Assembly: GCF_004022265.1 (NCBI RefSeq)
Contig: NZ_SAVB01000009.1
Coordinates: 1-64,000, forward strand
Direction of reading: 5' to 3'
DNA length: 64,000 nucleotides
Source of the DNA: Paenirhodobacter ferrireducens
Lineage (GTDB): Bacteria; Pseudomonadota; Alphaproteobacteria; Rhodobacterales; Rhodobacteraceae
Shown: positions 2,800 to 14,553 of the stretch, piece after piece
How the letters are laid out: every line of letters starts with the position of its first letter
Numbering within the stretch: the stretch's first letter is position 1
Notes under the pieces: model-generated
Seen by the model: the letters and a program-made list of their open reading frames with translations, nothing else
The model's database searches: none
Told to the model about the DNA's origin: nothing
Translations under genes and position numbers: made by a program

Positions 2800-3708
2800 T
2801 TAGCCCGCGTCCGCCCGGGCTGCGATGGCGGCGACCAGCTCGCGCAGGAACAGATCCTGAAGCGGCGTCGCCCGCATCCCGGCCCGCGTCGCCAGCAGCA
2901 GCCGCGAGCTCAGGGGGAAGCCCGTGCCAAGGACGCGCAGGTCGCCCGCCGCGACATGGGCCTTCGCGTAATGGGCGGGCAGGTAGCCGATGTAGCCCCC
3001 CGAAAGCAGGAACATCGCCTGCGCCTCCATGTTCGCGGCACTGGCCGGCATCACCGCCCCCGGGAAGGGGCCAAGCTCGCGCTGGTTCGCGTAAGGTCGG
3101 CCGACGAAGGGCCAGCGCGCGATCTCGGCGGTCTCGGTGACCTCGGCCGCGCGCGGGAACAGCGGATGGCCGCGGCCGCAATAGAGCAGGTGGCGCTCCT
3201 CGTGCAGCGGGCTCAGCCGCAGCCCCTCGGCAAGCCGTGTCTCGGGCAGGATCGCCAGATCGAGCGCACCGCCGGCCAGCCGCGCCACCAGCGTCTCGGG
3301 ATCGGCCATGGCGATGTCGAGCCGCGCCTCGGGGGCCCGCGCGCCGATCCGGCCGATCACCTGCGGCAATGGCAATCCGCTGTCGGTCACCGTGTTGTCG
3401 ATCATCCCGATCCGCAGCGTGCCGGTGATCCGGTCGCGCAGCCGGCCGACCTCGCTCTCGAAGGCGTCGAGCGAGAGGAACAGCGCGTCCGAGCGGGCAT
3501 GGACCAGCGCGCCGCGCTCGGTCAGGGCAAAACCGCCGCGGCCGCGCCGGCACAGCGCGAAGCCAAGCCGCTCTTCGAGCGCCTTGACGTGAAAGCTGAT
3601 CGCCGATTGCGACAGGCCAAGCGCGATCTGCGCGCCGGCGAAACCCTCGTGCTCGACCACCGCGCGGAACACGGCAAGGGCGCGCAGATCGGTGTTGGCG
3701 ATCTTCAT
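2800..3708 (-). CDS. LysR-family transcriptional regulator
   Basis: A 302-residue LysR-type regulator. The N-terminal winged helix-turn-helix is at about residues 8-67 (FAGAQIALGLSQSAISFHVKALEERLGFALCRR in two parts), and a substrate-binding-like effector domain covers about 90-295. It is divergent from the ureohydrolase gene at 3809, with a 100-bp shared intergenic region. LysR regulators commonly control the gene divergent to them, so it probably senses a guanidino compound or its product. A perfect inverted repeat overlaps its own start codon, which fits autoregulation. Confidence 0.9.
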   Translation of the reverse strand: MKIANTDLRALAVFRAVVEHEGFAGAQIALGLSQSAISFHVKALEERLGFALCRRGRGGFALTERGALVHARSDALFLSLDAFESEVGRLRDRITGTLRIGMIDNTVTDSGLPLPQVIGRIGARAPEARLDIAMADPETLVARLAGGALDLAILPETRLAEGLRLSPLHEERHLLYCGRGHPLFPRAAEVTETAEIARWPFVGRPYANQRELGPFPGAVMPASAANMEAQAMFLLSGGYIGYLPAHYAKAHVAAGDLRVLGTGFPLSSRLLLATRAGMRATPLQDLFLRELVAAIAARADAG

Positions 3709-3732
3709 TCACATCAACCTTTCTGATGTGAA
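3708..3732. promoter_or_regulatory. Inverted-repeat operator between the LysR gene and the ureohydrolase gene
   Basis: A perfect 9-bp inverted repeat, TTCACATCA-N7-TGATGTGAA, lies in the divergent intergenic region and overlaps the LysR start codon at 3706-3708. It contains the T-N11-A geometry of LysR-type binding sites. A TTGACG hexamer at about 3752 could be the -35 of the ureohydrolase gene. Assignment to this LysR protein is inferred from position. Confidence 0.65.
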
Positions 3733-3808
3733 GATCATATGTTCTGTATTTCTTGACGCAATGCCCCGTGTCATCCCTTGGCCCAAAGCCCTGCGGAAAG
3801 GACCCCCG

Positions 3809-4753
3809 ATGGCACATGGTTACGAGAGCGGCCGGCTGAATCTGCCCTTCGTCGGCATCTCCACCTTCGCGAAATCGCCCTACGAGCCGGACTGGAACCG
3901 GATCGACGCCGATGTGGCGGTGATGGGCGCGCCCTTCGACTGCGGCACGCAATGGCGCGCCGGCACCCGGTTCGGCCCGCGCGGCATCCGCGAGGCCTCG
4001 ACGCTCTTCGCCTTCGGCCATGCCGGGGCCTATGATTTCGACGATGACACGACCTATCTCGATGGCGTGCGCATCGTCGACATCGGGGATGCCGACATCA
4101 TCCACACCGACACCGCGGCCAGCCACGCGAATATCGAGGCGGGCGTGCGCGCGATCCTGCGCGCGGGCGCGCTGCCGGTGGTGCTGGGCGGCGACCACTC
4201 GATCAACATCCCCTGCATCAACGCCTTTTCCGACGAGGCACCGGTACATGTGGTGCAGATCGACGCCCATCTCGATTTCGTCGACGAGCGGCATGGCGTG
4301 CGGGTCGGCCACGGCAACCCGATGCGCCGCGCGGCCGAGAAGCCTTGGGTCGAGGGGATGACGCAGATCGGCATCCGCAATGTCTCGTCGACCGCGAAGG
4401 AGGGCTATGAGGCGGCGCAGGCGATGGGCTCGGACATCCTCTCGGTGCGGATGGTGCGCCGGCTCGGCATCGAGGCGGTGCTCGAGCGGATCCCGGCGGG
4501 GCGGCGCTATTACCTGACGCTCGACATCGACGGCTTCGACCCCTCGATCGCGCCGGGCACCGGCACGCCAAGCCATGGCGGCTTCCAGTATGACGAGGTG
4601 CTCGACATCGTCGCGGGGCTGGCCAAGCGCGGCACGATCGTCGGCATCGATCTGGTCGAGGTGGCGCCGGATTACGACCACACCGGCACCACCGCGATCC
4701 TCGCCGCGCAGATTCTGCTCAACACGCTCGGCCGGATCTTCGCGGCGCGCTGA
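3809..4753 (+). CDS. Agmatinase-like ureohydrolase (guanidino-compound hydrolase)
   Basis: A 314-residue arginase/agmatinase-family enzyme, which hydrolyses a guanidino group to urea plus an amine with a binuclear metal centre. The metal ligands are present: GGDHS (His130), DAHLDFVD (Asp152, His154, Asp156) and LDIDGFDPSIAPG (Asp239, Asp241). The ATG at 3809 follows GGAAAGGACCCCCG; the frame is open further upstream but no better start exists. The substrate cannot be read from sequence: agmatine, 4-guanidinobutyrate, 3-guanidinopropionate or guanidine itself are all possible in this family. It converges on the guanidine operon with only 16 bp between the two stop codons, which makes a guanidino substrate attractive. 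Confidence 0.85.
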   Translation: MAHGYESGRLNLPFVGISTFAKSPYEPDWNRIDADVAVMGAPFDCGTQWRAGTRFGPRGIREASTLFAFGHAGAYDFDDDTTYLDGVRIVDIGDADIIHTDTAASHANIEAGVRAILRAGALPVVLGGDHSINIPCINAFSDEAPVHVVQIDAHLDFVDERHGVRVGHGNPMRRAAEKPWVEGMTQIGIRNVSSTAKEGYEAAQAMGSDILSVRMVRRLGIEAVLERIPAGRRYYLTLDIDGFDPSIAPGTGTPSHGGFQYDEVLDIVAGLAKRGTIVGIDLVEVAPDYDHTGTTAILAAQILLNTLGRIFAAR

Positions 4754-4769: not shown

Positions 4770-6563
4770 TCAGCCCGCCTTCGCCGCGCAATAGGCGCGC
4801 CAGCCGCCGAAGCCGGTGATCTCCTCGGCGCCCGCGAGCGCATGGCCCTCGCACAGGAAGCCCGTCACCTGCCGGCCGTCGTCGAGCGTGACCTTACCGA
4901 CACCAAGCGGCGCCGGGATCGCGGCGACGAAGGCGCCGAAGGCGGCGGGCGACAGCGCCCAAAGCTCGAGCGCAAGGCCCGGGCCGGCAAACGCCGGGTC
5001 GAGGACCATCCCCGGTTTCGCCGGCACCGTGCCCGCCAGCGCATAGAGCCGATAGCCGGGTGCGGTGCGTGCCGTGCCCAGGCAGCGCCCGCCGGGGCCG
5101 GTCAGCTCGCGGTTCAGCGGCATACCGCTCAGATGCGCGCCGACGACGGCGAGCGTGCACCAGCCCTCGGGCAGGCGCGGCTCGGCCGGCGCGGGCACCG
5201 GCGCCGTGCGGTCGCGCCCCATGCCGCAGGCGGCGGCCGCGTGCATCGCGCCCGCGAAAGGCACCAGCGCCTCGTCCGAGAAGGCGGGCCCCACCAGCTG
5301 CACCCCCACGGGCAGGCCCGAGGCGCCGAACCCCGCCGGCACCGCGATCGCGGCGTATCCCAGAAGGTTCGCGAAGTTGGTGTAAAGGCCGAACTGGCTG
5401 TTGCGCCGGATCGGGTCGGCCAGCATCTCGGCCACCGTCGCGCGGGTGGGCGAGGTCGGCAGCAGCAGCATGTCGACCGCCTCCCAGGTCGGCGCGACCT
5501 GCTGGCGCAGCTCGTTCAGCCGGTAACGACCGCGGAAGGCCTCGACCGCGCTGCGCCCCTTCGCGCCCTCGATGATCTTGCGCACCGTGGGTTCGAAGTC
5601 GTCCGCGTTGGTGGCGAGGAAGTCCTCGACCGCGGCCAGACGTTCTGCGACCCAGGGCCCGTCGTAAAGCAGCGCCGCCGCCTTGCGGAAGGGGGCATAG
5701 TCGAAGGGGACGAGCGTCGCGCCAAGCGCCTCGGCGCGGGCGCAGGCGGCGTCATAGGCGGCCGCGACCTCGGCATTGCCATAGAACTCGCGCTCGGCCG
5801 CGGTCAGCACGCCGATCCGCGGACGGGCGGGCAGGGCGACGGGCTGGGCCTCGCGCGAGAACGGATCGGCGGGGTCAAGGCCTTCGATCAGCCGGCGCAC
5901 CTCGGCCGCCTCGTCGACGGTGCCGGCGAAGACGGTGATGACATCGACCGAGCGGCAGGCCGGCACGCAGCCGGTGTTCGGGACGAGCCCCGGGCTCGGC
6001 TTCAGCCCGACGAGGTTGTTGAACATCGCCGGCACCCGGCCCGAACCCGCGGTGTCGGAGCCGAGCGAGAAGGCACACAGCCCCGAGGCCACCGCCACCG
6101 CCGAGCCCGAGGACGAGCCGCCCGAGACATAGTCGGCATCGAACACGCAGCGCGGCGCGCCGAAGGGCGAGCGGGTGCCGTTCAATCCGGTCGCGAACTG
6201 GTCGAGGTTGGTCTTGCCGATCACGATCGCGCCCGCCGCACGCAGCCGCGCGACGGTCGTCGCGTCGCGCGCGGGCGAGGTGCCGAAGGCCGGGCAGGCG
6301 GCCGTGGTCAGCAGCCCGGCGACGTCGATATTGTCCTTCACCGCGAAGGGGATGCCGTAAAGCGGCAGCCCCTCAGGGCCGCGCTCGGCCAGCCGCTTCG
6401 CCTCGGCGCGCAGGCTCTCGGCCGGGGTTTCGGAAATGAAGACGGCGCGGTCCGTCAGCGCGTCGCGCCGGGCGATCACCTCCTCGATCACCGCAAGGGG
6501 CGTGGCGCCGGCGGCATAGGCCGCGCGAAGCGCCGCGATCGTCATCATGTCGGGGAGCTGCAT
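4770..6563 (-). CDS. atzF: Allophanate hydrolase
   Basis: A 597-residue amidase-signature enzyme that splits allophanate into CO2 and two ammonia. The Ser-cisSer-Lys triad regions are visible: YGIPFAVKDNID (Lys), SGGSSSGSAVAVASG (cis-Ser) and GSDTAGSGRVPA (nucleophile Ser). The C-terminal domain of about 150 residues (from GWCTLAVVGAHLSGMPLN to the end) is characteristic of AtzF rather than a plain amidase and carries out the second decarboxylating step. The ATG at 6563 overlaps the carboxylase TGA by one base (TGATG), indicating translational coupling. It is the last gene of the riboswitch-controlled operon. Confidence 0.93.
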   Translation of the reverse strand: MQLPDMMTIAALRAAYAAGATPLAVIEEVIARRDALTDRAVFISETPAESLRAEAKRLAERGPEGLPLYGIPFAVKDNIDVAGLLTTAACPAFGTSPARDATTVARLRAAGAIVIGKTNLDQFATGLNGTRSPFGAPRCVFDADYVSGGSSSGSAVAVASGLCAFSLGSDTAGSGRVPAMFNNLVGLKPSPGLVPNTGCVPACRSVDVITVFAGTVDEAAEVRRLIEGLDPADPFSREAQPVALPARPRIGVLTAAEREFYGNAEVAAAYDAACARAEALGATLVPFDYAPFRKAAALLYDGPWVAERLAAVEDFLATNADDFEPTVRKIIEGAKGRSAVEAFRGRYRLNELRQQVAPTWEAVDMLLLPTSPTRATVAEMLADPIRRNSQFGLYTNFANLLGYAAIAVPAGFGASGLPVGVQLVGPAFSDEALVPFAGAMHAAAACGMGRDRTAPVPAPAEPRLPEGWCTLAVVGAHLSGMPLNRELTGPGGRCLGTARTAPGYRLYALAGTVPAKPGMVLDPAFAGPGLALELWALSPAAFGAFVAAIPAPLGVGKVTLDDGRQVTGFLCEGHALAGAEEITGFGGWRAYCAAKAG

Positions 6564-9500
6564 CAGTCGGTCTCCAGAATGGCCAGCACGTCGCCGGCAT
6601 GAACGGTGCGGCCGGGGGCGGCGCGGGTCTCGCGCAGGCGGCCGGCGGCGGGGCTGTGGACGGTGATCTCCATCTTCATCGACTCGACGATGGCGACGGG
6701 ATCGCCCGCGGCAACGCGGGTGCCGGGGGCGACGAGGTATTTCCAGACGTTGCCGGGCACCGGGCTTTCGACGCCGGCGCAGCCCTCGGGGACCGCGGCC
6801 TGCTCGAAGACGCCGCCCTCGTCGGCGACGAACTGGTCGAGCCCCTCGGCCTTCCAGCGCGCCCGCTCGGCCTCGAAGGCGGCCTGCTGGCGGGCCTTGA
6901 AGGCCGCGGTGCCGGCGCTGTCCTGCGCGGCCTTCTCGGCCGCCCAGTCGAAGGTGCCCTCCTCGATGCGCAGGTCGTAGCGGCCATGCGGGAAGGCCTT
7001 GCGCGCCTCGGTGAGTTCCGCGTGGCTGACCGGGAAGAAACGGACCTGATCGAAGTGGCGCAGCAGCCAGGGCGTGTCGGCAAAGGCCGGGGTGCGCCGC
7101 CAGGTGTTCCACATCTGGATCGTGCGGCCGAAAAGCTGATAGCCGCCCGGGCCCTCCATGCCATAGATGCACATGTAGGCGCCGCCGATGCCCACCGCGT
7201 TCTCGGGTGTCCAGGTGCGGGCCGGGTTGTATTTCGTCGTCACCAGCCGGTGGCGCGGATCGACCGGCGTCGCCACCGGCGCGCCCAGGTAAACATCGCC
7301 CAGCCCCATCACCAGATAGCGCGCGTCGAAGATCGTGCGCTGCACCGCGGCCTCGTCCGCAAGCCCGTTGATGCGGCGGATGAACTCGATGTTCGAGGGG
7401 CACCACGGCGCGTTCGGCCGCACCAGCTCCTGATACTTGCGCATCGCAAGTTCCGCCTGCGGGTCGTTCCACGAGAGCGGCAGCCAGACCGTGCGGGTCG
7501 GCACCTTCACCGTTTCGGCCGCGGGCAGCCGCGCCTCGATCTCCGCAAGCTCGCGCAGCAGGTCGGGGCGCGAGATCTTCGCTGTGTCGTAGTGCAGCTG
7601 CAGCGAGCGGATGCTGGGGGTGAGGTCGATCACCGGCAGACCAGCCGCTTCGACCGCCTGCATCAGAAGCTGCACCCGCAGCCGAAGCCCGATGTCGAGG
7701 CTCATCGGCCCGTATTCGACGAGCAGGTTCTCGTCTCCCTGCCGGCGATAGGCGACGGGCACCGGGGCGTCGGACAGCGCACCGACCAGCGGCGAGCCGA
7801 GCCGGGCAATCGCCGGCCCCGCGACCGGGTCTGCGGGGCGCGCTGCGGGGCGGAAGCGCACCCGGTCGCCGGGCTTCAGCTGGCCAAGCTTCCAGCGGTC
7901 GGCGGCGCTGACCACACCCGGGCAGACGAAACCGCCAAGGCTCGGCCCGTCGGGGCCGAGGATGATCGGCATGTCGCCGGTGAAGTCGATCGCGCCGATG
8001 GCATAGGCGTTGTCGTGCAGGTTCGAGGGGTGCAACCCCGCCTCGCCACCATCCGTGCGTGCCCAGTCGGGCGCCGGGCCGATCAGCCGCACGCCGGTGC
8101 GGTCGGAGTTGAAATGCACCTCGTAGGCGGTGGCGAAGAGGGTCTCGATGTCGCTCTCGCGGAAGAAGTCGGGGGCGCCATGCGGGCCGTAGACAAGCTC
8201 CAGCTCCCAGTCCTCGGTCAGCTCGGCAGGCTCGGGCGCGGTCGGGGCGTCCTGTGCCACGCGGCCGACATGCAGCACGTCGCCGGTCTTCAGCGTGCCG
8301 GTCGCATGGCCGCCGAAATGGCCGAGTGCGAAGGTCGCGCGCGAGCCGAGCACCTTTGGCACCTTGAACCCGCCCGCAACCGCGAGATAGGCGCGCTGGC
8401 CCGGCCCCGCGACCCGGCCGATCGCCAGCGTCGCGCCAGCGGGCACCTCGAGCACCGGGCCCTCGACCGCCACGCCGTCAAGGGTCAGGGCCATCCGCGC
8501 CCCGGCAATCGCCACCCGGGCGGCGCGCAGGAAGCGCAGCGTCGGGCCGGCCACCGTCATCTCGAGCGTCGTGGTGTCGGGGGGCTGGCCGAGCAGGCGG
8601 TTCGCATTGCGATGCGCGCGCGGGTCCATCGGCCCCGAGGGCGGCACGCCCACGCCCCACAGCCCGAGCCGCCCCGGCAGCTCCTGCACCGAGCTTTGTG
8701 CGCCCGGCGCCAGCACCTCGATCCCCTCGGCGGCGAAGGCAAAGCCCGCAAGCGCCGTCGTCGCCACCTTGCCCGAGGCGAAAAGATCCGATCCCGCAAT
8801 CGCGCGCAGATAGTCGAGGTTGGTCTCGATCCCCGAGACATGGGTGGCGGCGAGCGCCGCGCCGAGCTTCGCGATCGCCTCGGCGCGGCTCGCGCCATGC
8901 ACGATGATCTTCGCCAGCATCGGGTCGTAGAAGGGCGTCACCTCGGTTCCGGTGGCGATCCAGCCATCGACACGGGCGTCTTCGGGGAAACGCACTTCGG
9001 TCAGCCGCCCGGCCGAGGGGCGAAAGCCCGCATGCGGCATCTCGGCGTAAAGCCGGGCCTCGATCGCGGCGCCTTGCGGGGCGGGCAGGGTGGCCGGGAT
9101 CGGGTCCTCGCCCGCCGCCTGACGCACCATCCACTCGACCAGGTCGATGCCCAGCACCGCCTCGGTCACCGGGTGTTCGACCTGCAGGCGGGTGTTGACC
9201 TCGAGGAAATAGAATTCCTCGCGCGCCGGGTCGTAGATGAACTCGACGGTGCCGGCCGAGGCATAGCCGACCTCGGCGCAGAGTTCCTCGGCGGCGCGGT
9301 GCAGCCGGGCGCGGACCTCGGGGCGCAGGCCCGGGGCGGGGGTTTCTTCAAGCACCTTCTGGTTGCGCCGCTGCAGCGAGCAGTCACGCTCGCCAAGCGC
9401 CACCGCCCGGCCGTGGCCATTGCCGAAGATCTGCACCTCGACATGGCGGGCGTCGGCGACGAAGCGTTCGAGATAGACGCGGGCGTCGCCGAAACTGGCC

Positions 9501-10063
9501 TGTGCGGTGCGCTCGACGCTGGCGAAGGCCGCGCGCAGCGCGGGCTCGTCGGCGCACAGGCTCATGCCGATGCCGCCGCCGCCGGCGGTCGACTTCAGCA
9601 TCACCGGATAGCCGATGCGGGCGGCCTCGGTCGCGGCGGCTGCGGCATCGGGCAGAAGCCCGGTGCCCGGCAGCAGCGGCACGCCCGCCCGCGCGGCGAT
9701 CTCGCGCGCGGTATGCTTGAGTCCGAAGGCCTCGATCTGCTCGGGCCGCGGGCCGATGAAGGCCACCCCCGCCGCCGCCAGCGCCGCGGCAAAGCGGGTG
9801 TTCTCGCTCAGAAACCCATAGCCCGGATGCACCGCCTCGGCGCCGGTGTCGCGGCAGGCCTGCACCACGGCCTCGATCTGCAGATAGCTTTCGGCCGCCG
9901 GCGCCGGCCCAAGCCGCACCGCCTCGTCGGCAAGGGCGACATGGGGGGCGAAGCGGTCGGCGTCGGAATAGACCGCGACCGAGGCGATCCCCATCGTCTT
10001 CAGCGTGCGGATGATGCGCACCGCGATCTCGCCGCGGTTCGCCACAAGAACCTTCTGGAACAT
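6563..10063 (-). CDS. Biotin-dependent carboxylase of the urea carboxylase family, probably guanidine carboxylase
   Basis: A 1166-residue protein. Biotin carboxylase comes first (about 1-450; MFQKVLVANRGEIAVRII, ATP-grasp loop STAGGGGIGMS). The KipI/KipA-type carboxyltransferase domain follows (about 465-1080), then a biotinyl domain with the VESMKMEI lysine at about 1130. This architecture is called urea carboxylase in databases. In operons with two DUF1989 proteins, AtzF and a ykkC riboswitch, as here, the family is known to carboxylate guanidine with ATP and bicarbonate to carboxyguanidine. An Asp/Asn difference in the carboxyltransferase active site is reported to separate guanidine from urea enzymes; I could not map that position. 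The biotin ligase that must modify it is not in this window. Confidence 0.9.
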   Translation of the reverse strand: MFQKVLVANRGEIAVRIIRTLKTMGIASVAVYSDADRFAPHVALADEAVRLGPAPAAESYLQIEAVVQACRDTGAEAVHPGYGFLSENTRFAAALAAAGVAFIGPRPEQIEAFGLKHTAREIAARAGVPLLPGTGLLPDAAAAATEAARIGYPVMLKSTAGGGGIGMSLCADEPALRAAFASVERTAQASFGDARVYLERFVADARHVEVQIFGNGHGRAVALGERDCSLQRRNQKVLEETPAPGLRPEVRARLHRAAEELCAEVGYASAGTVEFIYDPAREEFYFLEVNTRLQVEHPVTEAVLGIDLVEWMVRQAAGEDPIPATLPAPQGAAIEARLYAEMPHAGFRPSAGRLTEVRFPEDARVDGWIATGTEVTPFYDPMLAKIIVHGASRAEAIAKLGAALAATHVSGIETNLDYLRAIAGSDLFASGKVATTALAGFAFAAEGIEVLAPGAQSSVQELPGRLGLWGVGVPPSGPMDPRAHRNANRLLGQPPDTTTLEMTVAGPTLRFLRAARVAIAGARMALTLDGVAVEGPVLEVPAGATLAIGRVAGPGQRAYLAVAGGFKVPKVLGSRATFALGHFGGHATGTLKTGDVLHVGRVAQDAPTAPEPAELTEDWELELVYGPHGAPDFFRESDIETLFATAYEVHFNSDRTGVRLIGPAPDWARTDGGEAGLHPSNLHDNAYAIGAIDFTGDMPIILGPDGPSLGGFVCPGVVSAADRWKLGQLKPGDRVRFRPAARPADPVAGPAIARLGSPLVGALSDAPVPVAYRRQGDENLLVEYGPMSLDIGLRLRVQLLMQAVEAAGLPVIDLTPSIRSLQLHYDTAKISRPDLLRELAEIEARLPAAETVKVPTRTVWLPLSWNDPQAELAMRKYQELVRPNAPWCPSNIEFIRRINGLADEAAVQRTIFDARYLVMGLGDVYLGAPVATPVDPRHRLVTTKYNPARTWTPENAVGIGGAYMCIYGMEGPGGYQLFGRTIQMWNTWRRTPAFADTPWLLRHFDQVRFFPVSHAELTEARKAFPHGRYDLRIEEGTFDWAAEKAAQDSAGTAAFKARQQAAFEAERARWKAEGLDQFVADEGGVFEQAAVPEGCAGVESPVPGNVWKYLVAPGTRVAAGDPVAIVESMKMEITVHSPAAGRLRETRAAPGRTVHAGDVLAILETD

Positions 10064-10067
10064 CGGC

Positions 10068-10664
10068 TTACCCCCGGATCACGACCTGGATCGGCGTCGG
10101 GTCGAAGCCGTTGCAGGGGTTGTTGATCTGCGGGCAGTTCGAGATGAAGACGAGCAGGTCCATCGCCGCCTCCATCTCGATGTAATCGCCCGGGTGGCTG
10201 ATGCCGTCGTCGATGGTCATCGCGCCGTTCTGGCTGATCGGCACGTTCATGAAGAAGTTCAGGTTCGGCACGATGTCGCGCTTGGTCATCCCGTATTTCG
10301 AGAATTCCAGAATGAAATTCTCGCGGCAGGCATGCAGATACGAGGTCTCGTGGCCGAAGCGCACGGTGTTGCTCTCGCGCGAGCAGCAGCCGGCATTGGT
10401 GTCGTGCCGGCCCGAGGTCGCGGCTATGATCGTCGCCATCACATTGCCCTCGGACGAGATCAGCTGCGTGCCCTTCTCGATATAGGCGCCGTTTTGCACC
10501 CGCATCGTGTCCTGACTCGAATAGCGTTCGGCGGTGTCGGCGGCGTTGTACAGGAGGGTGTCGATCGCCTGCTGGCCATAGCTGTCGATGATGCGGATGG
10601 TCTGGCCCTGTTTGACGAGGCCCGACCAGGGGCGGTTCGCGGGGATGTCGTGGATCTGTTCCAT
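10068..10664 (-). CDS. DUF1989 protein, putative carboxyguanidine deiminase subunit (motif-bearing)
   Basis: A 198-residue 'urea carboxylase-associated' DUF1989 protein. In guanidine operons, two such proteins (CgdA and CgdB) form the heteromeric deiminase that turns carboxyguanidine into allophanate and ammonia. This copy keeps the polar motif SGRHDTNAGCCSRES (about residues 92-106), which looks like a metal or active-site segment. I chose the ATG at 10664 because MEQIHDIP begins the conserved region; the longer upstream frame is low-complexity and overlaps the paralogue. It lies 4 bp before the carboxylase and 10 bp after the larger paralogue. I cannot decide which of CgdA or CgdB it is. 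Confidence 0.85.
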   Translation of the reverse strand: MEQIHDIPANRPWSGLVKQGQTIRIIDSYGQQAIDTLLYNAADTAERYSSQDTMRVQNGAYIEKGTQLISSEGNVMATIIAATSGRHDTNAGCCSRESNTVRFGHETSYLHACRENFILEFSKYGMTKRDIVPNLNFFMNVPISQNGAMTIDDGISHPGDYIEMEAAMDLLVFISNCPQINNPCNGFDPTPIQVVIRG

Positions 10665-10674
10665 GGAGGGGACC

Positions 10675-11475
10675 TCAGGCGCGTGCGGTGTTCTCGAAGC
10701 CGCGGACGGCTTCGGCGGTGGCGGTGCGGCACAGGTCGTCCCGGGCGATCGGACGCGCGGCAAGGCGCGTCGCGCGGACGGAGGGAACCTCCGGACCCGT
10801 CGTCGGGTCAAGCGGGTGGCGGGTGTTCGACAGCGCGATCAGCAGGTCCTGCTCGGCGCGCAGCTCGACCCAGTCGTCGCCGTTCAGGAGCGCCGGGTTC
10901 CAGAAGAACTGCCCCTCGCCGTCGACGCGCACCGGCGCGAAGAAGGTCAAAAGGGCGGGCAGGTCGCGCTTGTCGAGGCCGAGCTTGGCGGTGGCGAGGA
11001 TCATGTTCTCGCGCGTCGAGCGGAAGGCGGGGGTGAAGGGCGCGCGCGCCGGCATCCCGCCGCTCAGCGCATCATTGGCGCCCGCCGAATCCTCGGTGAT
11101 CGAGAACAGCACCCGCCCCATGTCGGAAAACACCACGCGGCCCTTCTTCAGGTCGGTCGTCCATTGCAGCTTGCAGGTGTCGGGCAGGTTCTGCCGTTCC
11201 GAGCTGTCGGCGGCGGACCAGGCGGCAAGGCTGACCGAGCCGCCCAGCCCGCCCGCCTCGAGCCGCAGGCTCTGGCCGCGGGCGAGCCGGCAGGTGTAAT
11301 ACCACCCGCCCGGCACGGTCTCGGCCCAGATCACGCCCGCCGGCGCGGGGGCGGGGCGGGGGCTTGGTGCCGGAAGCGCCTTCGGCGCGGCGTTCAGCCC
11401 CTTGCGCTGGTGCTCCTCATAGCGCGCGCGGTCGGCGGCGATGGCGTCAGCGGAGCGGGGGATATGCGTCAGCAT
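10675..11475 (-). CDS. DUF1989 protein, putative carboxyguanidine deiminase subunit (degenerate motif)
   Basis: A 266-residue paralogue of the next gene, longer by an N-terminal extension of about 45 residues rich in Pro and Ala. At the position of the HD...CC motif of the smaller protein it reads EDSAGANDALSGGM, so the His and Cys residues are replaced. This suggests a structural or regulatory partner rather than a second active subunit. The start ATG at 11475 has a strong AAGGAGGAACCCG site. The gene begins inside the last 29 bases of the ABC ATPase gene, so the two are translationally coupled. Confidence 0.85.
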   Translation of the reverse strand: MLTHIPRSADAIAADRARYEEHQRKGLNAAPKALPAPSPRPAPAPAGVIWAETVPGGWYYTCRLARGQSLRLEAGGLGGSVSLAAWSAADSSERQNLPDTCKLQWTTDLKKGRVVFSDMGRVLFSITEDSAGANDALSGGMPARAPFTPAFRSTRENMILATAKLGLDKRDLPALLTFFAPVRVDGEGQFFWNPALLNGDDWVELRAEQDLLIALSNTRHPLDPTTGPEVPSVRATRLAARPIARDDLCRTATAEAVRGFENTARA

Positions 11476-12304
11476 CGGGTTCCTCCTTGGGCCAGGTCGT
11501 CCCGGCGATGGGCCCCGGAATGGTCGGGTCGTCCCGACCGGGCAGGAGATCTGCGTCCCAGATCGTGGTCTTGCCGGCACTGCGCGGCGGCCAGATCAGG
11601 ATGTCTTTGGTGATCGTCGCGCCATAGCGCAGCCGTTCCTCGGGACGGTCGCGGGTGCGCTCGAAGGCGATGATCCGGGTGGCGAGAGTGAAGGCCTCCT
11701 TGAGGTCATGCGTCACCATCACCACGGTCATCGGCACCTCGTTCCACAGCCGCTTCATCAGCCGGTGGATGTCGGAGCGGATGCCCGGATCGAGCGCGCC
11801 GAAGGGCTCGTCCAGAAGCAGCACCTTCGGCTTCATCATCAGCGCCTGCGCAAGGGCAAGGCGCTGCTGCATGCCGCCCGAAAGCTGGGCGGGATACTTG
11901 TCCTCGCTGCCGGCAAGCCCGACCTCGGCCAGCATCGCGCGCGCTTCGTCAGCGATGGCGCGGCGGCGCGCGCCGAAGGTGCGGCCGAGGAAGCGGCTTG
12001 CCCGCAGCTCGGGCCCGGCCATGACATTGCCCAGCACCGTCATGTGCGGAAAGACCGAATAGCGCTGAAACACCACGCCACGATCGGGGTCGGGCTCGTG
12101 CGGCAGCGGTGCGCCATCAAGGGTGATGGTGCCGCGCGTCGGCGTCTCTTGCCCCAACAGCATGCGCAGGAAGGTGGTCTTGCCGCAGCCCGAGGGGCCG
12201 ACGAGGGCGATGAAGGCGCGCGGCGCAATCGTCAGATCGACGTTTTGCAGCACGACCTGATCGCCGTATTCCTTCCACAGGTTCCGGATCTCGATGCCGC
12301 TCAT
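11447..12304 (-). CDS. ABC transporter ATPase of the nitrate/taurine/guanidine-type importer
   Basis: A 285-residue ABC ATPase with Walker A GPSGCGKTT (about 36-44), the signature LSGGMQQRLALAQAL (about 140-154), Walker B VLLLDEPFGALD and an H-loop VTHDLKEAF. The C-terminal tail of about 60 residues, rich in Pro and Trp, is longer than in TauB/SsuB relatives. It powers the permease encoded immediately upstream; the two genes overlap by 4 bases (ATGA). Guanidine as substrate is inferred from the riboswitch and the downstream enzymes. Confidence 0.9.
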   Translation of the reverse strand: MSGIEIRNLWKEYGDQVVLQNVDLTIAPRAFIALVGPSGCGKTTFLRMLLGQETPTRGTITLDGAPLPHEPDPDRGVVFQRYSVFPHMTVLGNVMAGPELRASRFLGRTFGARRRAIADEARAMLAEVGLAGSEDKYPAQLSGGMQQRLALAQALMMKPKVLLLDEPFGALDPGIRSDIHRLMKRLWNEVPMTVVMVTHDLKEAFTLATRIIAFERTRDRPEERLRYGATITKDILIWPPRSAGKTTIWDADLLPGRDDPTIPGPIAGTTWPKEEPDADAYPPLR

Positions 12305-13119
12305 CTGCCGCGCTCCAGCTCCGACCAGGGGAAGACCCGCCGGCGCAGGGCGGTCAGGCCCAGGTCCATCGCCACCGCGAGCAGGGTGATCCACGCCACA
12401 TAGGGGAAGATCACGTCCATCGAGAGATAGCGGCGGACCAGAAAGATCCGGTAGCCCAGCCCCGAGTCGGCCGAGATCGCCTCGGCCGCGATCAGGAACA
12501 GGAAGGCCGGGCCGATCTGCAGCCGCAGGCTGTCGATGAGCCGCGGCAGCACCTGCGGCAGCACCACCCGGATCGCGATGAGCCAGGTCGAGGCCGAGAG
12601 CGTCTCGGCCTTGATGATCTGTTCGCGCGGCAGCGCCTGCGCCGAGAGCGCGAGGTCGCGGATCAGGATCGGCGCGACGCCGATCACGATCAGCGTGACC
12701 TTCGACACCTCGCCCAGACCCAGCACGATGAACAGGATCGGCAGGAGCGCGAGCGGCGGCACCATCGAGACGACGGCGACGAAGGGGGCAAGCACCGCGC
12801 GCACCACGGGCAGGATGCCGTTCAGCAGGCCCAGCACCAGCGCGAGCGCCGTGGCGATGCCGATGCCGGCGAACAGCCGGCCAAGGCTTGCCGCGCTGTC
12901 CGACCACAGCAGGTAGAGCCCGGTGCGGCGATCGGCGGTGAAGGCGTAGAGCTTCACCGTCTGCACGATCGTCGACAGCGCCGGCAGCAGCTTGTCGCTC
13001 GGGTTTTCCGCCAGCCGCACCGCCGAACCCACCAGATAGGCAAGCGCCAGCACCACGAAGGGCAGGCAGGCGAGGAGGATTGCCGTCCCCCGTCGCGGTC
13101 TGACATTGATGAGCCGCAT
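12301..13119 (-). CDS. ABC transporter permease of the guanidine operon
   Basis: A 272-residue inner-membrane protein of the Binding-protein-dependent transport (TauC/SsuC) type. About six hydrophobic segments are visible, the first at residues 12-32. The cytoplasmic EAA-like coupling loop is around KAETLSASTWLIAIRVVLPQ (about 169-188). It follows the binding-protein gene by 12 bp and overlaps the ATPase gene by 4 bp. Confidence 0.88.
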   Translation of the reverse strand: MRLINVRPRRGTAILLACLPFVVLALAYLVGSAVRLAENPSDKLLPALSTIVQTVKLYAFTADRRTGLYLLWSDSAASLGRLFAGIGIATALALVLGLLNGILPVVRAVLAPFVAVVSMVPPLALLPILFIVLGLGEVSKVTLIVIGVAPILIRDLALSAQALPREQIIKAETLSASTWLIAIRVVLPQVLPRLIDSLRLQIGPAFLFLIAAEAISADSGLGYRIFLVRRYLSMDVIFPYVAWITLLAVAMDLGLTALRRRVFPWSELERGR

Positions 13120-13131
13120 CGCCGGGCCCGC

Positions 13132-14199
13132 TTACAGCTTGCCGTCCCGGGCGAGTTTCATGAACGCGTCGGTGTAGCGGAACTGGACGTTCGCGCTGTC
13201 GCCCAGCACGGCGCCGCCGGGCATCTCGATGCCGATCGCATCGGCCGAGGTCGCGCCGGTGCCGAGAAGCCCCTTGTCGAAGAGGAAGGTGCGCACATGG
13301 TCCATCGTGGTCGGCAGCTCGGCCGAGGTGACGAAGGCGACGCCATCGGCGGGCTTGTCGAAGAGACGCGTGGCGGCAAGCTGTTCCTCGAATCCGGCCT
13401 GATCGGTGCCCGAGGCCGCGCCCATGGCGGCGCGCGCGGCGGCGCCCTCGGCCGTGTCGGCCTGCATCAGCGTCACGGTGTCATACCAGATCCCGGCAAG
13501 GGCCTTGCCGAAATCGGGGTTCTCCGTCAGCACTTCGGTGTTCGCCACCATCATGTCGATGATCTCGCCCGGGATCTTCGAGCTGTCGAAGACGACATGG
13601 GCATCGGGCAGCTTGGCGATTTCCGACACCATCGGGTTCCAGGTGACCATCGCGGTCACGTCCGGTGTCTGGAAGGCGCCGACCATGTCCGGATCGGCGG
13701 TGTTGACCACCTTGACGTCCTTCTCGGTCATGCCGGCGCTTTCGAGCCCGCGCACCAGCAGGTATTCCGAGACCGAGAATTCGACGAGGTTGACGCTCTG
13801 GCCCTTGATGTCGGCAAGGCTGTCCTTGCCCTTCAGGATCACCGCGTCATTGCCGTTCGAGAAATCGCCGATCACCACCGCGGTGGTGTCGACGCCGCCT
13901 GCGGCCGGGATCGAGAGCCCGTCCATGTTGGTCAGCGTCACCGCGTCATAGGCGCCGGCGGTGTACTGGTTCATCGACTCGACATAGTCGTTGAACTGCG
14001 TGACCTCGATCGTCAGGCCGTATTTGTCGGCCCATTTCTTCACGATGCCATGGTCGGCGGCATAGCCCCAGGGCATCCAGCCGGCATAGATCGACCAGGC
14101 GACCTTGAAATCGGTCTTCGGAGCGGCAAAGGCGGGCGAGACGGCGAAGGCGGCCAGGGTTGCGAGCGAGCCGAGAAGGGTGGCGCGGCGGGTCGTCAT
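13132..14199 (-). CDS. ABC transporter substrate-binding protein (putative guanidine-binding)
   Basis: A 355-residue periplasmic binding protein of the NMT1/TauA-like family, with a signal peptide of about 25 residues ending AFA-AP that carries a Tat-like TTRRATLLG start. Aromatic residues near the N-terminus (WSIYAGWMPWGYAADHG) resemble the ligand pocket of 'putative urea' binding proteins found with guanidine carboxylases. It is the first gene of the operon and lies directly behind the guanidine-I riboswitch. GTGAAAGGAACGACCC precedes the ATG. Guanidine binding is inferred from context and has not been shown for this protein. Confidence 0.88.
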   Translation of the reverse strand: MTTRRATLLGSLATLAAFAVSPAFAAPKTDFKVAWSIYAGWMPWGYAADHGIVKKWADKYGLTIEVTQFNDYVESMNQYTAGAYDAVTLTNMDGLSIPAAGGVDTTAVVIGDFSNGNDAVILKGKDSLADIKGQSVNLVEFSVSEYLLVRGLESAGMTEKDVKVVNTADPDMVGAFQTPDVTAMVTWNPMVSEIAKLPDAHVVFDSSKIPGEIIDMMVANTEVLTENPDFGKALAGIWYDTVTLMQADTAEGAAARAAMGAASGTDQAGFEEQLAATRLFDKPADGVAFVTSAELPTTMDHVRTFLFDKGLLGTGATSADAIGIEMPGGAVLGDSANVQFRYTDAFMKLARDGKL

Positions 14200-14266
14200 G
14201 GGTCGTTCCTTTCACGTTCAAACTGCATACATGAAGGGACGAACGGACCATCGTTCCGCCAATCCC

Positions 14267-14381
14267 TTGGCTGGACGAGGTCTCCCGGGTTTTTATCCCG
14301 CCGTGCGCCGAACGGGGATGTCTCCCCCGCCGGTGGCAGCTCTCGGACCAGACGCATCTCTGCCGGAACCCTAGTCGCCAA
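14267..14381 (-). promoter_or_regulatory. Guanidine-I (ykkC) riboswitch in the leader of the importer/carboxylase operon
   Basis: On the minus strand this leader carries the conserved blocks of the ykkC aptamer in order: ACTAGGGTTCCGGC, CTGGTCCGAGAG, a variable stem, CACGGCGGGATAAAA and ACCCGGGAGA. The closing stem can form between TTGGCGAC at the 5' end and GTC-CA-GCCAA at the 3' end. The GCCAA strand (14267-14271) can instead pair with a TTGGC at 14258-14262, giving two mutually exclusive folds as in a switch. No U-run follows the alternative hairpin, so control may be at translation or by another route. The rest of the gap up to dnaE2 (14382-14553) shows no gene; the promoter should lie there. 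Confidence 0.93.
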
Positions 14382-14553
14382 CTCTGGTCCCATGACGCCA
14401 AGCGGGGCGGCATGGGTCAAGGATTTCACCCGCCACGCGCGGCAGTGCGGCGCGGGCGGGGGCGCCTTGCCCGTCTGCGCGACGCAATTTCCGACCGGCG
14501 GGCAAAAAAGCGGCAGTTCCGGCACGGGGGCGGGGCGCGACTCGGCCCGGGGC

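Follow-up and report, generated by a model that had tools for sequence, protein, structure and literature searches.

A guanidine-II aptamer in the coding end of an importer ATPase gene of a likely guanidine assimilation operon in Paenirhodobacter ferrireducens and other Alphaproteobacteria

We analyzed a 64,000-nucleotide stretch of Paenirhodobacter ferrireducens DNA (NCBI RefSeq GCF_004022265.1, contig NZ_SAVB01000009.1, positions 1-64,000; hereafter the window), the minus strand of which carries a tightly packed operon. This run extends from 14385 to 4770, from a guanidine-I riboswitch to an allophanate hydrolase gene, and a second aptamer, of the guanidine-II class, lies inside the gene for the ATPase of an ATP-binding cassette (ABC) importer. 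An initial annotation of this DNA had named a binding protein, a permease, an ATPase, two DUF1989 proteins, a carboxylase and a hydrolase, and family scans found all of these within the one minus-strand run. It had also placed the genes behind a guanidine riboswitch, which is correct for the leader; the operon, however, contains two such riboswitches, the guanidine-II element within the ATPase gene having been overlooked.

The leader guanidine-I aptamer occupies positions 14280..14385 (RF00442, 72.1 bits against a cut-off of 63), and its alignment with 15 operon relatives shows the core columns of this class to be common to all of them. Behind it, likewise on the minus strand, lie the genes for the periplasmic substrate-binding protein (SBP) of the importer (13132..14199; TIGR03427, 532.5 bits, above cut-off), the ABC permease (12301..13119; PF00528, BPD_transp_1) and the ABC ATPase (11447..12304; PF00005, ABC_tran), whose final codons form the guanidine-II aptamer. 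In the NCBIfam scan, no equivalog scored above cut-off for the permease or the ATPase. The SBP has weak solved relatives only, such as the taurine-binding 6ssy (E 1.5e-6), and we therefore infer the ligand of the importer from its context. Next come two DUF1989 proteins (PF09347) that are likely to be carboxyguanidine deiminase subunits, UAAP1 (10675..11475; TIGR03425, 219 bits, cut-off 205.95) and UAAP2 (10068..10664; TIGR03424, 308.9 bits, cut-off 284.7), followed by a biotin-dependent carboxylase (6563..10063; TIGR02712, 1742.8 bits), named urea carboxylase in the database and probably a guanidine carboxylase, and an allophanate hydrolase with a C-terminal AH_C domain (4770..6563; TIGR02713, 750 bits; PF01425 and PF21986). 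The open reading frame (ORF) of the hydrolase was listed from 7472, which is too early; the likely ATG lies at 6563, in a one-base overlap with the carboxylase stop. The hydrolase holds the motifs GKTNLD at 128 and GGSSSG at 160 (numbering of the scanned frame), which we take to be the Lys and Ser motifs of the amidase domain. In addition to this overlap, the permease and ATPase genes overlap as ATGA and the ATPase and UAAP1 genes by 29 nt, and the remaining intergenic gaps measure 4, 10 and 12 nt. Across the window's own genome, RF00442 and RF01068 each gave one match at E 0.001 or better, both inside this operon.

In the available text of PMC11410670, guanidine carboxylase is reported to require Asp at the position of K. 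lactis residue 1584, and Asp at position 1330 to separate it from urea carboxylase. When the window carboxylase was aligned to the K. lactis enzyme (5i8i), N1330 paired with D693 and D1584 with D923; the pairing was counted from the aligned rows and the letters were confirmed in the window protein. The initial annotation had proposed to align the carboxyltransferase Asp/Asn position; the window enzyme has Asp at both published markers. The K. lactis urea amidolyase/urea carboxylase (5i8i, 3va7) has the same carboxylase domains, and the alignment spans nearly the whole window protein, but it carries Asn rather than Asp at 1330, and in the window the hydrolase is a separate gene. Among 128 loci, window included and some genomes occurring twice, the markers read D/D in 119; in the other nine the positions were not covered, and four of these nine are not such operons. 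Two urease alpha genes lie elsewhere in the same genome, which may allow urea to be used without this operon. Just as the initial annotation had anticipated, the automatic names (NCBIfam) do say urea; its guanidine reading gained from the two guanidine riboswitches, the two marker Asp residues, both DUF1989 subunits and the ureases elsewhere. Judged from sequence, the substrate is probably guanidine and not urea.

The guanidine-II aptamer of the window (11492..11540, minus strand; RF01068, 44.3 bits against a cut-off of 32) consists of two hairpins, P1 and P2, with ACGA loops, and lies wholly within the ATPase ORF, in the 3' coding end of that gene. Directly 3' of P2 lies the Shine-Dalgarno sequence of UAAP1, AAGGAGGA (11481..11488, minus strand), and the ATPase frame stops at 11447, beyond both the aptamer and the UAAP1 start codon (11475). 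By this gene geometry, a ribosome finishing the ATPase must traverse the sensor. The predicted fold of the aptamer stretch contains P1 and P2 (z -2.54), with 3 of 200 shuffles folding equally well. A conserved RNA element at the ATPase 3' end is well supported by these and the comparative sequence data that follow; while being translated, it would presumably still function as an aptamer.

A GTDB scan with the UAAP1 alignment yielded at least 584 confirmed relatives, the best 80 of which were kept; this sample is biased towards close relatives, among which Rhizobiaceae and Rhodobacter-type bacteria predominate. An aptamer model built from 20 operon aptamers gave one match each in 76 of the 80 loci, just before UAAP1. 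The whole aptamer lies within the ATPase ORF in 50 loci (class A), including three with weak model matches (L150, L154 and L161; E 0.024 to 0.028). In 19 further loci P1 is inside and the ATPase stop falls in the linker or in P2 (class B), in six the aptamer is outside the ORF (class C), and one has no ATPase upstream. No match was obtained with the model in the remaining four, one of which (L182) is cut by the contig end, the others (L172, L184 and L198) looking altered by eye. In L184 and L198, some 90 nt ahead of the start of UAAP1, the ATPase tail still holds a P1-like stretch with an enlarged loop, possibly the remnant of a decayed embedded aptamer. Rfam searches on eight of the 80 loci detected guanidine-I in all eight and guanidine-II in seven (absent from L154). 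A guanidine-I sequence pattern was present upstream in 72 loci, in 70 of them together with guanidine-II, although the pattern undercounts, since it missed L154, to which Rfam gives 75.3 bits. Finally, the ATPase stop and the UAAP1 start overlap as ATGA in 26 of the 50 class A loci (starts chosen by rule), as in termination-reinitiation.

A UAAP1 tree was computed for the 80 loci plus the window (81 rows), with a midpoint root that served display alone. Its first split divides 11 Rhodobacter/Roseobacter types from 70 rows, most of them Rhizobiales, and embedded aptamers occur on both sides of this split. All six class C loci fall into a single group with support of 100/99, and the class labels together need 8 changes, compared with 27.5 when shuffled. 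If the midpoint root holds, embedding would be the simplest ancestral state for this sample; gene transfer could also account for the pattern.

Codon usage within the embedded aptamer was analyzed for class A loci whose aptamer is 50 nt long. Dereplication reduced these from 41 to 40, of which 39 read the aptamer in one frame and one in another. In the core of the ATPase, synonymous differences among same-residue sequences averaged 0.403 (249 columns). Six of the 17 aptamer codons, all in loops and inner stems, had a synonymous difference of 0.00, the 1% quantile of the core being 0.05. Similarly, Arg was always encoded by CGG in the hairpins (P1, 38 of 38; P2, 29 of 29), as against 157 of 847 core Arg codons. 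At five of the six linker codons residue variation was 0.61 to 0.74, compared with a core mean of 0.146; the sixth, a Gly, varied at 0.10. Paired positions covaried as well, with a score of 0.535 versus 0.147 for shuffles in the 20 operon aptamers, and of 0.232 versus 0.140 in the 63 distinct model matches, for which the alignment was fitted to the structure. Because the sequences are related, neither the constraint nor the covariation figures are probabilities. Class C, in addition, retains the aptamer where it is untranslated. We conclude from these sequence comparisons that selection acts on the RNA of the embedded aptamer; the tail peptide that it encodes is probably a passenger.

The position of guanidine-II was also surveyed more broadly. 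A UAAP1 search at a threshold of E 1e-40 retrieved 42 of 398 genomes of the phylum, that of the window being one of them, and the addition of three relatives from a family search (G046, G175 and G022) brought the set to 45. Guanidine-II was found within the operon in 31 of these, in one case (G449) below the Rfam cut-off, with survey search filters (used over 40 genomes) that lose some weak matches. In 22 genomes, all from bacterial classes other than the window's, the aptamer lies between UAAP2 and the carboxylase gene, and in all 22 the UAAP2 stop precedes it. In the other nine, all of the window's class, it stands before UAAP1, and seven of these (G000, G046, G175, G229, G240, G303 and G444) enclose it completely in the ATPase ORF, all in the same frame. 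In G559 the aptamer begins 14 nt past the ATPase stop, and in G225 no ATPase of this operon adjoins it.

Some operons of the collection are more heavily equipped. L095, L096, L098 and L101 (genomes G562, G577, G251 and G452) carry two guanidine-I aptamers, each before its own SBP gene, and add a guanidine-II aptamer before the carboxylase gene, giving three guanidine riboswitches per run. In a survey of the family, guanidine-II was matched in 37 of 198 genomes (E 0.001 or better), and only the matches of G000, G046 and G175 adjoin a UAAP1 gene that scores above the cut-off of its own protein family.

Guanidine-II riboswitches are proposed, in the accessible part of PMC9094411, to act on translation: the Shine-Dalgarno sequence would be masked by an anti-Shine-Dalgarno within the linker and become free when guanidine makes the loops kiss. 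We computed Shine-Dalgarno accessibility for 70 distinct sequences, window included, leaving out four loci without a Shine-Dalgarno-like motif. Accessibility averaged 0.26 with the native linker and 0.41 with shuffled linkers, was lower with the native linker in 52 of the 70 sequences, and fell in the lowest tenth of the shuffles in 30. Linkers also fitted their own Shine-Dalgarno sequence better than those of other loci (-6.22 versus -5.38 kcal/mol), none of 2000 permutations being as low (56 distinct pairs). Both sets of figures are inflated because the loci are related. As to their composition, the linkers of the alphaproteobacterial aptamers (about 11507-11521 in the window) commonly contain a G run, with GGG at one codon in 31 of 40 loci, in addition to a pyrimidine stretch, a possible pairing partner of the Shine-Dalgarno sequence.

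Taken together, we consider it quite probable that this is an operon for guanidine import and assimilation under two guanidine riboswitches, the internal guanidine-II element adjusting the translation of UAAP1. Gene content, both aptamers, the marker residues, the conserved overlap with the ATPase ORF and the RNA-level codon constraint are direct observations; we infer the substrate, the induction, the direction of the switch and any effect of ribosomes reading through the aptamer. Binding of guanidine to the leader guanidine-I aptamer would raise expression of the transcript, as is the published role of that class. The ABC importer would take up guanidine, which the carboxylase would convert to carboxyguanidine; UAAP1 and UAAP2 would deaminate this to allophanate, and the hydrolase would break allophanate down to ammonia and CO2. 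The guanidine-II element in the last ATPase codons would then adjust the translation of UAAP1, and perhaps that of the enzyme genes behind it: once guanidine is bound, the two loops would kiss and the Shine-Dalgarno sequence would be freed, following the mechanism published for the class.

Several results weigh against this interpretation. In the window itself the native linker hides the Shine-Dalgarno sequence no better than shuffled linkers do (accessibility 0.53 versus 0.43), and the same is true of L139, L142 and the four class C loci tested. In a duplex test, which is a weak one, 5 of 69 linkers ranked in the best 5% of their own shuffles and 38 in the best 25%. A search of the surroundings of the guanidine-I aptamer with simple sequence patterns found neither a terminator nor a sigma-70 promoter pattern. 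Lastly, no guanidine-II match lies in the operon in 14 of the 45 surveyed genomes, six of other bacterial classes, seven of the window's class and G022 of its family, so that the pathway can do without this aptamer. Among these 14, G521 lacks a carboxylase at that place, and G022 shows no aptamer, the stop codon of its ATPase gene overlapping the start of UAAP1.

The overlap with the ATPase gene may be neutral even if the riboswitch works, the stop codon having been lost and the frame having run on through hairpins that hold no stop codons. We put the chances of this at about even. It would suit the six class C loci with the aptamer outside the ORF, the 19 class B loci with a stop in the linker or P2, and the freedom with which residues vary at five of the six linker codons (0.61 to 0.74); it is less easily reconciled with how widespread embedding is (50 of 80 loci whole and 19 partial), with the use of one frame in 39 of the 40 loci tested, and with the ATGA overlap of stop and start in 26 of the 50 class A loci. 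That the embedding is instead functional, with ribosome traffic on the ATPase gene and guanidine binding jointly gating translation of the degradative enzymes, is a tentative suggestion that we hold the less probable of the two. It would involve termination-reinitiation at the stop-start overlap and a resetting of the aptamer at each passage of a ribosome, in what would be an old alphaproteobacterial design with an aptamer placed in translated sequence. If true, the riboswitch would read both the metabolite and the synthesis of its own importer.

It is unlikely that, instead of controlling initiation at UAAP1, the aptamer acts on the transcript, with termination by Rho or cleavage by an RNase past the ATPase gene. 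Although the linkers of the window, L139 and L142, which hide the Shine-Dalgarno sequence no better than shuffles, would be consistent with such an action, each of the 76 loci with a model match has it immediately ahead of UAAP1, and linker and Shine-Dalgarno sequence fit each other over the locus set. Far less probable still is that the apparent aptamer is no sensor at all, its nucleotides either simply encoding a protein motif (RDGP...RDDL) that is conserved in the ATPase tail or being what is left of a decayed element. L184 and L198 do keep part of the coding tail where the model finds no aptamer; the protein-motif reading was nevertheless rejected because of the codon test, with its six codons devoid of synonymous variation, and the covariation of the aptamer pairs, and it is further opposed by retention of the aptamer outside the ORF in class C and by a window aptamer that scores above the Rfam cut-off. 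Degradation of urea by a urea carboxylase and allophanate hydrolase, as the NCBIfam names (urea carboxylase; putative urea ABC transporter binding protein) would have it, is the least credible alternative and was rejected because the residue that is Asn in the urea enzyme of K. lactis is Asp in the window enzyme, two guanidine riboswitches lie within the operon, and two urease alpha genes are found elsewhere in the genome.

Operons with two guanidine riboswitches have been described before. In the available text of PMC12508155, the operon of Vreelandella boliviensis has guanidine-I in front (KD 44 uM) and guanidine-II before the carboxylase gene, both riboswitches having been probed, and the same arrangement is given for operons of Raoultella, Klebsiella and Erwinia in that of PMC12186494. 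As far as these texts show, the window operon shares with them the leading guanidine-I aptamer, the importer, deiminase, carboxylase and hydrolase genes, and one internal guanidine-II aptamer. It differs in that the published operons have guanidine-II in the gap between the deiminase and carboxylase genes, whereas in the window it stands before the deiminase genes, inside the coding sequence of the ATPase; the extra genes described for Vreelandella, mgdH and mgdL, are not present between the carboxylase and hydrolase genes of the window. With guanidine-II (mini-ykkC) riboswitches generally, the window aptamer has in common two hairpins with ACGR loops and a linker, but it lies within a translated coding sequence, a position of which the papers surveyed give no example. 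The accessible portions of the literature searched, which leave supplements uncovered so that earlier notice is possible, do not describe guanidine-II aptamers that lie within coding sequence or ahead of deiminase genes. Given that the pathway is established in print, guanidine degradation itself is not new; what appears to be new is the place of the second riboswitch, a conserved aptamer that many Alphaproteobacteria carry in the coding end of the ATPase gene of the importer.

These data suggest that a metabolite-sensing RNA can persist in translated sequence, its codons being held by selection at the RNA level, and they raise the question of how an aptamer functions in RNA that ribosomes are traversing. 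The 80 loci provide ready natural variants in this respect, with the ATPase stop codon after P2, in the linker or P2, or before P1. From the survey, the gene in front of which the internal switch stands would seem to vary with bacterial class: the deiminase genes in the nine operons of the window's class that have such a switch, the carboxylase gene in the 22 of other classes.

The operon is flanked by a gene for an agmatinase-family ureohydrolase (3692-4753, plus strand), which is convergent with it, 16 nt separating its end from the stop of the hydrolase gene. Among solved structures, it is best matched by the agmatinase 1wog and the guanidinobutyrase 3nio. We considered it as a candidate guanidinase; it lies outside the operon. 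Past the operon, the minus strand between 209 and 3708 also encodes an AraC-type regulator (ORF 209-1456), which resembles GbdR and scores below the GbdR cut-off, a phytase-like protein (1356-2705) and a LysR-type regulator (2800-3708).

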